In this document: positions 1,001-30,194 of the stretch, one piece after another
Numbering within the stretch: the first letter of the stretch is position 1
Layout of the letters: each line of letters begins with the position of its first letter
Assembly: GCA_002841495.1 (NCBI GenBank)
Contig: PGZV01000004.1
Location: 62,001 to 126,000 of the forward strand
Direction: 5' to 3'
From: Firmicutes bacterium HGW-Firmicutes-2
Lineage (GTDB): Bacteria > Bacillota > Clostridia > Lachnospirales > Vallitaleaceae
DNA: 64,000 nucleotides
Program-made: the position numbers and the translations under genes
The notes under the pieces: generated by a model
What the model saw: only the letters and a program-made list of their open reading frames with translations
Databases searched by the model: none
What the model was told of the DNA's origin: nothing

Positions 1001-1147
1001 GGCTTTGGGCAAATGCTCAAGGCCTTTTATTTTACTCTAGGAAACCCATACTATGTTAATGCGTTGAAGCGCCGCATTAACTATTAAGGAAATCTTTCCT
1101 GCCGTAACAATTTGCTTTGCAAAACGAGGCGTAGCCTCTTTGTTTTT
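1001..1147 (+). ncRNA. Structured RNA element, copy A (unrecognised family)
   Basis: This intergenic stretch folds into four hairpins that recur, with compensating base changes, at 29978-30152. (1) 1001-1010 pairs with 1015-1024 and is followed by a T-rich run, so it may terminate the CDGSH transcript. (2) AGGAAA (1039-1044) pairs with TTTCCT (1095-1100) and encloses CATACTAT plus a perfect 9-bp stem (1055-1063 with 1073-1081) with loop TTGAAGCGC. (3) TTTGC/GCAAA at 1111-1123. (4) GAGGC/GCCTC at 1126-1138, followed by TTTGTTTTT, a terminator that also works for the convergent activase gene. I do not recognise the family. Strand is inferred from the T-run. Confidence 0.55.
1124..1147. terminator. 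Bidirectional terminator between structured RNA A and the first activase gene
   Basis: GAGGC-gta-GCCTC (1126-1138) is flanked by AAAAC on the left and TTTGTTTTT on the right, so it can end transcription from both sides. It lies directly beyond the stop codon of the minus-strand activase gene. Confidence 0.6.
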
Positions 1148-10482: not shown

Positions 10483-10992
10483 ATGGATAGTACAAAAATC
10501 TTAAATACGGAGTACGATAAAAGACTAAGCCAACTGGATAACGAGCATAGTACCTTGAGATTCGAGACATTTAATTCTGACACTGCAATCACGATAGGAT
10601 TAAAGCTGCTGGAAAGAGCAAAAGAAGAGAATCTATCTATTACAATTGATATTTGCATGGGAAAGCAACAATTGTTTCATTGTGCGCTTGAAGGAACAAA
10701 TGAAGAAAATGACAGATGGGTCATTAGGAAAAATAGAGTGGCATTAGAATTTAAAAAAAGTTCATATTACATAAGCCTTCTGTTAAAATCTAACAATACA
10801 ACAATTGAAGCGTATTATCACTTGGACTCAAAAGACTATGCGCCTTATGGAGGTGCCTATCCGATTATGGATATGGAAGGGAAAGTGCTTGGTACGATAA
10901 CAGTCTCAGGTCTACCGGACCATGAAGATCACCGAGTGGTAACAGAGACAATCAAGTGGTTTTTGCAGAACAAAGAGACTTCGTCACGTTAA
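10483..10992 (+). CDS. UPF0303 / HbpS-GlcG-like protein
   Basis: A 169-residue protein of the UPF0303 family, in the wider GlcG/HbpS fold often annotated as a heme-degrading or flavin/heme-binding domain. Diagnostic stretches are APYGGAYPI near 123 and LGTITVSGLPDHEDH near 139-153. The ATG at 10483 follows GAGGAG. Such proteins occur beside polyol and propanediol-type catabolic operons, but their biochemical role is unclear. The gene has its own promoter, divergent from the glycyl radical enzyme operon. Confidence 0.75.
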   Translation: MDSTKILNTEYDKRLSQLDNEHSTLRFETFNSDTAITIGLKLLERAKEENLSITIDICMGKQQLFHCALEGTNEENDRWVIRKNRVALEFKKSSYYISLLLKSNNTTIEAYYHLDSKDYAPYGGAYPIMDMEGKVLGTITVSGLPDHEDHRVVTETIKWFLQNKETSSR

Positions 10993-11060
10993 TATTCATG
11001 GAAAACTACTATAATCAAGGTCGGATTTGCTTAAACACATAATAAGTTTCTTATAAATCA

Positions 11061-11096
11061 AAAAGATGAGGTAGCATAGGCTGCCTCATCTTTTTT
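11061..11096. terminator. Bidirectional terminator
   Basis: GATGAGGTAGC (11065-11075) pairs with GCTGCCTCATC (11080-11090), flanked by AAAA and TTTTTT. It serves the convergent UPF0303 and DeoR genes. Confidence 0.85.
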
Positions 11097-29259: not shown

Positions 29260-29913
29260 ATGAATATTTATCTAGATACGGCAGATGTCAATGAAATAAA
29301 GAAATACTTTGATTTGGGAATTGTTGCAGGGGTAACGACCAACCCGACGATTATCTCCAGAACAGGCAAAGAATTCATCACCGTCATTAATGAGATCGTT
29401 GAGATTGTAAAAGGTCTACCTGTGAATGCAGAAGTGATTAGTTTGGACGCAGAAGGTATGATCACAGAAGGAAGAGAATTAGCAGCACTAAATCCAAGTA
29501 TTGTGGTTAAGATTCCTATGTGTATGGAAGGTCTAAGAGCGGTAAAAGTATTATCAGATGAGGGTATCACAACGAATGTAACCTTAGTCTTTTCCGTAAC
29601 ACAAGCATTGATGGCTGCACGAGCAGGTGCCACATATGTCAGTTCCTTCCTTGGAAGGGTAGATGATGTGGGCGGAGACGGCATTGCCTTGATTCAAGAT
29701 GTTATAACCATCTTCAAAGAGTATGGTATCAAGAGTAAAGTTATAGCAGCTTCCGTACGCCACATGGGTCATGTCATCGGATGTGCAAAAGCAGGCGTTG
29801 ATATTTGTACAATTCCTTCTTCACTGATTCCAAGTATGGCCAATCACCCCTTAACAACCCAAGGATTAAATCAGTTCTTAGAAGACTGGAAAAAAGTACC
29901 TACAAAAAAATAG
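29260..29913 (+). CDS. Small transaldolase / fructose-6-phosphate aldolase
   Basis: A 217-residue TalC/FSA-type class I aldolase. MNIYLDTADVNEIKKYFDLG, GVTTNPTIISR, the Schiff-base lysine K84 in VVKIP, and SSFLGRVDD are diagnostic. The short length fits the FSA/TAL subgroup, which either splits fructose 6-phosphate-like ketoses or transfers dihydroxyacetone units. It follows E1 by only 18 bases, so it is co-transcribed with the dehydrogenase complex; the ribosome site is weak (CAAGTAGG). The coupling suggests that the aldol product feeds the 2-oxo acid route (inference). Confidence 0.88.
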   Translation: MNIYLDTADVNEIKKYFDLGIVAGVTTNPTIISRTGKEFITVINEIVEIVKGLPVNAEVISLDAEGMITEGRELAALNPSIVVKIPMCMEGLRAVKVLSDEGITTNVTLVFSVTQALMAARAGATYVSSFLGRVDDVGGDGIALIQDVITIFKEYGIKSKVIAASVRHMGHVIGCAKAGVDICTIPSSLIPSMANHPLTTQGLNQFLEDWKKVPTKK

Positions 29914-29977
29914 ACATAGAATGACCATTAGATTAATATACTAAAAAAGGTTATAAAGAAATTCAATTAAAACACAT

Positions 29978-30152
29978 AAGGAACTAGGTGCTGATATCAG
30001 AGTAAGATTGAAGCAGCCTAGTTCCTTGTGTTCTCAAGGAAAGTCATACTATAGTATTCAGCCTTGAAGCATGGCAGAATACGTCAAAGACCTTTCCTGT
30101 CGAACCGTTCAGAAATATGAGCAGAGCTCATAACGAAGCGAAGCTTCTTTAT
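29978..30152 (+). ncRNA. Structured RNA element, copy B (unrecognised family)
   Basis: The same four-hairpin layout as 1001-1147. (1) AAGGAACTAGG (29978-29988) pairs with CCTAGTTCCTT (30017-30027). (2) AGGAAAG (30037-30043) pairs with CTTTCCT (30092-30098) around CATACTAT and a 10-bp stem (30054-30063 with 30073-30082, one A-A mismatch) with loop TTGAAGCAT. (3) ATGAGC/GCTCAT at 30116-30130. (4) GAAGC/GCTTC at 30135-30147 followed by TTTATT. Single-stranded blocks agree with copy A while stems differ but still pair. It lies between the aldolase gene and rsgA. Confidence 0.55.
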
Positions 30153-30194
30153 TACATATACAATGAGGGTTATAAGAGGGTAGGAGGTAAGAAG

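Follow-up and report, generated by a model that had tools for sequence, protein, structure and literature searches.

The two matching structured segments in the window (the whole 64-kb stretch, 64,000 nucleotides, of Firmicutes bacterium HGW-Firmicutes-2 DNA analyzed here) are most likely copies of a very small mobile element rather than of an RNA that regulates genes. They probably belong to a new family of short, non-autonomous, structure-dependent mobile repeats in the Vallitaleaceae, the fold of which is read by a trans-acting enzyme; that the family is new and previously unnamed is well supported. Its copies are dispersed, follow T-runs or terminators in one orientation, are cleanly inserted, are polymorphic between species, stack in tandem, and carry compensatory changes in their paired segments. 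Strong covariation is usually taken as proof of a functional RNA, yet here textbook covariation in every helix goes together with the behavior of a mobile repeat that has a marked taste for terminators. The element is ordinary in kind, being a small mobile repeat, and unusual in its terminator targeting, the depth of its covariation, and its dedicated intron.

A covariance model built from 46 copies detected exactly two strong copies in the window, A and B (Table 1). Both are present where the sequence-only reading had placed them, share one fold, and fold far better than dinucleotide-shuffled sequences (z = -3.59 for copy A and -6.25 for copy B). The compensatory stems described in that reading are real for P2 (GTTAATGCG/CGCATTAAC in copy A versus GTATTCAGCC/GGCAGAATAC in copy B) and for P4 (GAGGC/GCCTC versus GAAGC/GCTTC). 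Three of its four shared hairpins were likewise retained, but the first (1001-1024 for copy A and about 29974-30031 for copy B) shows no sequence relationship between the two copies, being in each case the terminator of the gene before it. Two details were revised: TTTCC, taken to be a single-stranded block, pairs with GGAAA and closes around the long hairpin, and CATACTAT, taken to be a conserved block, is represented by CATACTTT or TATGCTAT in other copies. The final ∼5 nt of copy B have diverged, and a transaldolase-like gene ends upstream of this copy at 29913. At the orthologous terminator of the possible decayed third copy, a sister genome has an intact copy (L160; here and below, loci are numbered L and genomes G).

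Table 1. Window coordinates of copies A and B, their helices, and associated features.
Feature	Position	Strand	Description	Basis
Host terminator 5′ of copy A	1001-1032	+	Hairpin GGCTTTGGGCAAATGCTCAAGGCC plus TTTTATTT; target, outside the element	Sequence
Copy A	1033-1145	+	Type-A 5′ hairpin and type-A 3′ domain	Covariance model R1, 88.8 bits, E 1.2e-19
Copy A P1, 5′ strand	1039-1044	+	AGGAAA; pairs with 1095-1100	
Copy A P2, 5′ strand	1055-1063	+	GTTAATGCG; pairs with 1073-1081	
Copy A P2, 3′ strand	1073-1081	+	CGCATTAAC	
Copy A P1, 3′ strand	1095-1100	+	TTTCCT	
Copy A P5, 5′ strand	1106-1110	+	AACAA; pairs with 1140-1144	
Copy A P3 hairpin	1111-1123	+	TTTGC-TTT-GCAAA	
Copy A P4 hairpin	1126-1138	+	GAGGC-GTA-GCCTC, then T-rich end	
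Copy A P5, 3′ strand	1140-1144	+	TTGTT; 3′ end of the element	
Possible decayed third copy	10967-11067	-	3′ of a terminator	12 bits only
Host terminator 5′ of copy B	29974-30030	+	Outside the element	Predicted fold
Copy B	30031-30155	+	Type-B hairpin and 3′ domain	Covariance model R1, 146 bits, E 1.2e-33
Copy B P1, 5′ strand	30037-30043	+	AGGAAAG; pairs with 30092-30098	
Copy B P2, 5′ strand	30054-30063	+	GTATTCAGCC; pairs with 30073-30082	
Copy B P2, 3′ strand	30073-30082	+	GGCAGAATAC	
Copy B P1, 3′ strand	30092-30098	+	CTTTCCT	
Copy B P3 hairpin	30116-30132	+	TATGAGC-AGA-GCTCATA	
Copy B P4 hairpin	30135-30147	+	GAAGC-GAA-GCTTC, then T-run	

Across the family the element is ∼93 to 130 nt long, mostly 114 to 125. 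It starts at its 5′ end with TTCTCWAGGAAAG, continues with P1 (AGGAAAG/CTTTCCT) around a freely varying P2, and ends in a 3′ domain in which the hairpins P3 and P4 are enclosed by a fifth helix, P5. This last helix, seen in most copies, is formed by the base of P3 and the outermost 3′ nucleotides; it is AACAA/TTGTT in copy A, has decayed in copy B, and elsewhere takes the form GAACAA/TTGTTC, GAGAAA/TTTCTC, GGATAA/TTATCC, or AGAAA/TTTCT, among others. In an alignment of 125 distinct copies, which was fitted to the covariance model and thus leans towards the structure, both partners were changed in 26 of 28 pairs, 94.9% of the cells paired, and the covariation score was 0.307; shuffling lowered it to 0.087, and sliding the partners gave no more than 0.071. 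An independent MAFFT alignment led to the same conclusion (0.193 versus 0.060). RNAalifold recovered P4 alone from the raw MAFFT alignment, probably because of copies that have lost hairpins, and covariation was instead tested on the explicit structure. P2 is cleanly missing from some copies, and unpaired stretches such as CGUCAAGGA are conserved. The covariance-model check proposed at the outset produced further homologues with strong covariation, and the earlier failure to recognize a known family was borne out, with no Rfam 15 family reaching its gathering threshold; searches of the window and, for the element itself, of the element loci at gathering and permissive thresholds returned chance-level matches only. 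These data support a structured element with true covariation that lies outside Rfam. The sporulation sRNA CsfG, a first guess at its identity, was supported by no search.

The element is abundant within a narrow range of bacteria. Using the consensus of the shared part, blastn found ∼43 matches in the source genome (G000, genus Petrocella) and 42, 39, and 24 in three congeneric genomes, and the element pattern was also matched in named records, namely Petrocella sp. FN5, the MAG Firmicutes bacterium HGW-Firmicutes-3, and one contig labelled Tenericutes. The covariance model detected multi-copy structural homologues among 196 genomes in at least six genera of Vallitaleaceae and in a single genome from a different family of the same order, and a broader model detected the family in G000 and in none of the other 390 of 391 genomes drawn from the class; the filters in both searches were stricter and may have lost weak matches. 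The consensus was unmatched in phage and plasmid collections, and viral contigs had a few pattern matches and no strong element. Head-to-tail tandem units of 125 bp occur in the source genome and its congeners, and tandem copies were also found in other genera (L247, L250, L255, and L324), which makes stacking a general property of the element. Truncation, at one end or the other, affects some copies.

The insertion sites share a distinctive upstream context. For 65 non-tandem copies, a T-run (at least four T in six positions) lay directly upstream at 63 host sites and a strict hairpin plus T-run at 38; the latter combination was present at 3.1% of random positions and at 2 of 62 sites located 150 nt upstream. 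Copies with no upstream hairpin still sit after T-rich tracts, and the element keeps one orientation relative to the preceding T-run or terminator. The genes around the copies were arranged ++ in 60 cases, +- in 24, -- in 22, and -+ in 8, with no consistent neighbor. A replication-strand bias was considered as a sign of single-strand transposition and was discarded, as the copies simply track gene direction (the G006 origin is near 1.88 Mb according to GC skew).

Many copies are absent at the orthologous sites of sister species (L031/L191, L039/L201, L019/L109, L032/L212, L047/L209, L046/L186, and other pairs). The element-less joins are clean, as where TTTATTTTT abuts TTACAGAC and CACCTTTTATTT abuts CATCACC, and no recurrent target-site duplication was found at orthologous empty sites, the exact 5′ junction being blurred at some of them by T-run slippage. 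Copy A is absent from the orthologous G007 site (L196), and its G006 orthologue (L205) is reduced to CTCTAGGA, so that at L205 a deletion, rather than an empty site, could account for the difference; the terminator hairpin 5′ of copy A is kept at both element-less loci. Copy B is absent from the orthologous G006 site (L195), where the terminator hairpin 5′ of it is also kept. Orthologous terminators hold different subtypes in different species (L043/L137, L024/L121, and L166/L141), which implies repeated insertion at one place or conversion between copies; part of this turnover could be due to gene conversion among dispersed copies. The element is a clean system for following the spread of a gene-less folded sequence, since one congener genome is complete and both empty sites and tandem copies are available.

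Three related group II introns from three genera were found at a single internal nucleotide of the element, AGGA^AAGTC in P1, a site that maps as AGGA^AA to the 5′ strand of P1 in copy A; the case matters in its own right as a group II intron lineage residing at one nucleotide of another repeat. When the intron boundaries were taken as GCGTG...CTCTAC, the joined flanks of the intron-bearing copies in G007 (L102) and in G011, which is of another genus (L292), were TTCTCAAGGA with AAGTCATAC and TTCTATAGGA with AAGTCCTAC, the exact intron-less consensus, as would result if the intron had landed in an element that was already there. The intron of the third genus (G005, L317) is situated 3′ of a terminator, is flanked by CATAGGAA and AGTTATCCG, and contains an uninterrupted 430-codon RT frame; the element at this locus has decayed beyond detection by the model, and 15 of 16 nt equal the 5′ end of another G005 copy. 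The three introns are 74 to 78% identical, and a fourth RF02003 intron (G016, L315) lies outside any element. Further copies (L037, L042, L049, L067, and L141) carry a ∼28-nt remnant of the 5′ end of the guest intron, with the deletion junction at a short AAGTC repeat. Pairing of the intron EBS1 with TCTCAA of the element was suggested by L102 and failed in L292 and L317. Read most simply, these data describe a guest intron homing to the element, on which the lineage has specialized.

The same introns suggest an alternative in which the element is a non-autonomous passenger that a group II (IIC-like) RT copies into terminators, the intron-bearing copies being autonomous. Hairpins, terminators among them, are the targets of group IIC introns, which require no more than short IBS1 and IBS3 sequences (PMC3898094), and the shared insertion nucleotide, the open RT frame, and the intron remnants all agree with this proposal. 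However, the intron-less element lacks domain V and any other part of a group II core (RF00029 and D1-D4 matched the guest introns only), so it cannot reverse-splice itself, and the group II maturase (PF08388) was not detected in G000, G006, G012, G016, and G017, all of which have copies. In addition, the L102 and L292 joins fit arrival of the intron in an element already in place, and some host sites have a T-run with no hairpin. We regard this alternative as unlikely.

A stand-alone small RNA or 3′-UTR module, multi-copy because it is useful (e.g., as a second terminator or an RNA-stabilizing cap), must also be weighed, and would be consistent with the very strong covariation, the conserved unpaired stretches, the location after genes, and the resemblance of P4 and its T-run to a weak terminator. 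In the paired columns of the element we counted 46 G-U (G-T) versus 43 A-C cells, whereas six tRNAs from the same loci, a small control set, yielded 15 G-U and 0 A-C. This equality speaks against selection on individual copies for a strand-specific RNA; it would be the expectation for neutral decay of inserted copies or for a fold that matters as DNA, and it could also reflect the decay of dead copies, which is compatible with an RNA role or step for the active ones. The module would moreover follow a terminator that is already present upstream, its neighbors are inconsistent, and variable occupancy of orthologous loci, truncation, and tandem arrays all run against it, so that we judge it to be quite unlikely. 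The original suggestion of a small RNA with its own terminator is unsupported on the same grounds (∼43 dispersed copies, orthologous absences, and no G-U excess), and the 5′ hairpin belongs to the host gene. A riboswitch-like cis-regulatory leader of the downstream gene, also proposed initially, is very improbable. An rsgA-like gene does follow copy B on its own strand, but the gene beyond copy A is convergent with it, the copies trail the 3′ ends of unrelated genes with the next gene in either orientation and often on the other strand, and their closest constant neighbor is the upstream T-run or terminator.

For the mobile repeat that we favor, a trans-acting enzyme would recognize the fold during mobilization, probably as a folded single strand, and the fold would be kept mainly for that recognition and not for a regulatory RNA action of each copy. 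One-strand targeting, the lack of duplication, and an end that pairs to the hairpin base make a single-strand transposase of the HUH/Y1 type our leading guess for the candidate mobilizer. The terminal hairpin and T-run of the element may themselves serve as the target for the next unit, in which case tandem stacking is expected. The Y1 transposase (PF01797) was not detected in G000, G007, G016, and G017, all of which have copies, and neither this enzyme nor the group II maturase qualifies as an obligate partner, their presence and absence across copy-bearing genomes being inconsistent with such a role. We identified neither a mobilizing enzyme nor, besides the intron-bearing copies, a longer version with genes between the same ends. 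It is improbable that the element is the targeting and substrate module of an undescribed terminator-seeking mobile element, possibly composite with a co-evolving intron lineage whose RT would copy the intron-less form in trans.

Comparison with known systems places the element near several of them. As in mobile repeats of the MITE, REP, and bcr kinds, there are many dispersed copies, with presence or absence against an intact empty site. Measured against classical MITEs, the ends (TTCTC..CTTG) are not inverted repeats and no duplication recurs at empty sites. For non-autonomous elements of the IS200/IS605 type, the features to look for are subterminal hairpins and a guide that pairs with the cleavage site at the ends; here P5 joins the 3′ end to the base of the 3′ hairpins, a possible counterpart, and we found no cognate transposase sharing the ends of the element. 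Integron attC sites conserve structure while their sequence varies and recombine as folded single strands; unlike them, the element was seen with no integrase or cassette arrangement. The bcr1-bcr18 repeats of the Bacillus cereus group are 100-400 bp chromosomal repeats, with tens of copies for bcr1, the mobility of which is linked to a TTTAT motif; a site-specific mechanism has been proposed and the mobilizing enzyme is unclear (PMC6542083). The element resembles them in being lineage-restricted, chromosomal, and multi-copy with features of mobile elements, but it follows T-runs or terminators and not TTTAT, shows no recurrent duplication, and occurs in several genera. REP/REPIN sequences are mobilized by TnpA-REP (RAYT) (PMC8266576, PMC3116915), and REPs are palindromes of 20-40 bp in GTAG/CGTC-tagged superfamilies (PMC3733652). 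The element is likewise small, extragenic, and non-autonomous, and structure matters in both, the folded REP strand being recognized; its ∼115-125 nt and five helices nevertheless set it apart by size and fold, and several copy-bearing genomes have no detected Y1 transposase. Like group IIC introns (PMC3898094), it inserts beside terminator hairpins, but it contains no domain V, intron core, or RT, and it is itself the host of a group II intron.

Other repeats were observed as well. One further dispersed family (GGTCCCATGAAAACCCTTCCACAGTCTGTATGACTACGGCCTCCGGTTGGTGC..., frequently with TTCCAGGAACTTCATGGTCGATGTTGG following downstream) gave 45 matches in G000 and 41 in G006 (loci L065, L068-L070, L019, L063, and L216-L245) and at L069 and L070 encloses part of the element. 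Copies also occur inside another palindromic repeat (ACACAGCTTTTCCTTG...CAGCRGAAAAGCTGTGT; loci L019, L080, L109, L146, and L162), L109 being this repeat with no insertion. Just 3′ of the CTTG end of the element at L120, L123, L124, L128, L144, and L157 lies a near-perfect palindrome, GTTTATTAGGAAAGTYCTACTTTCCTAATAAAC, that looks like P1 of the element collapsed into a single hairpin.
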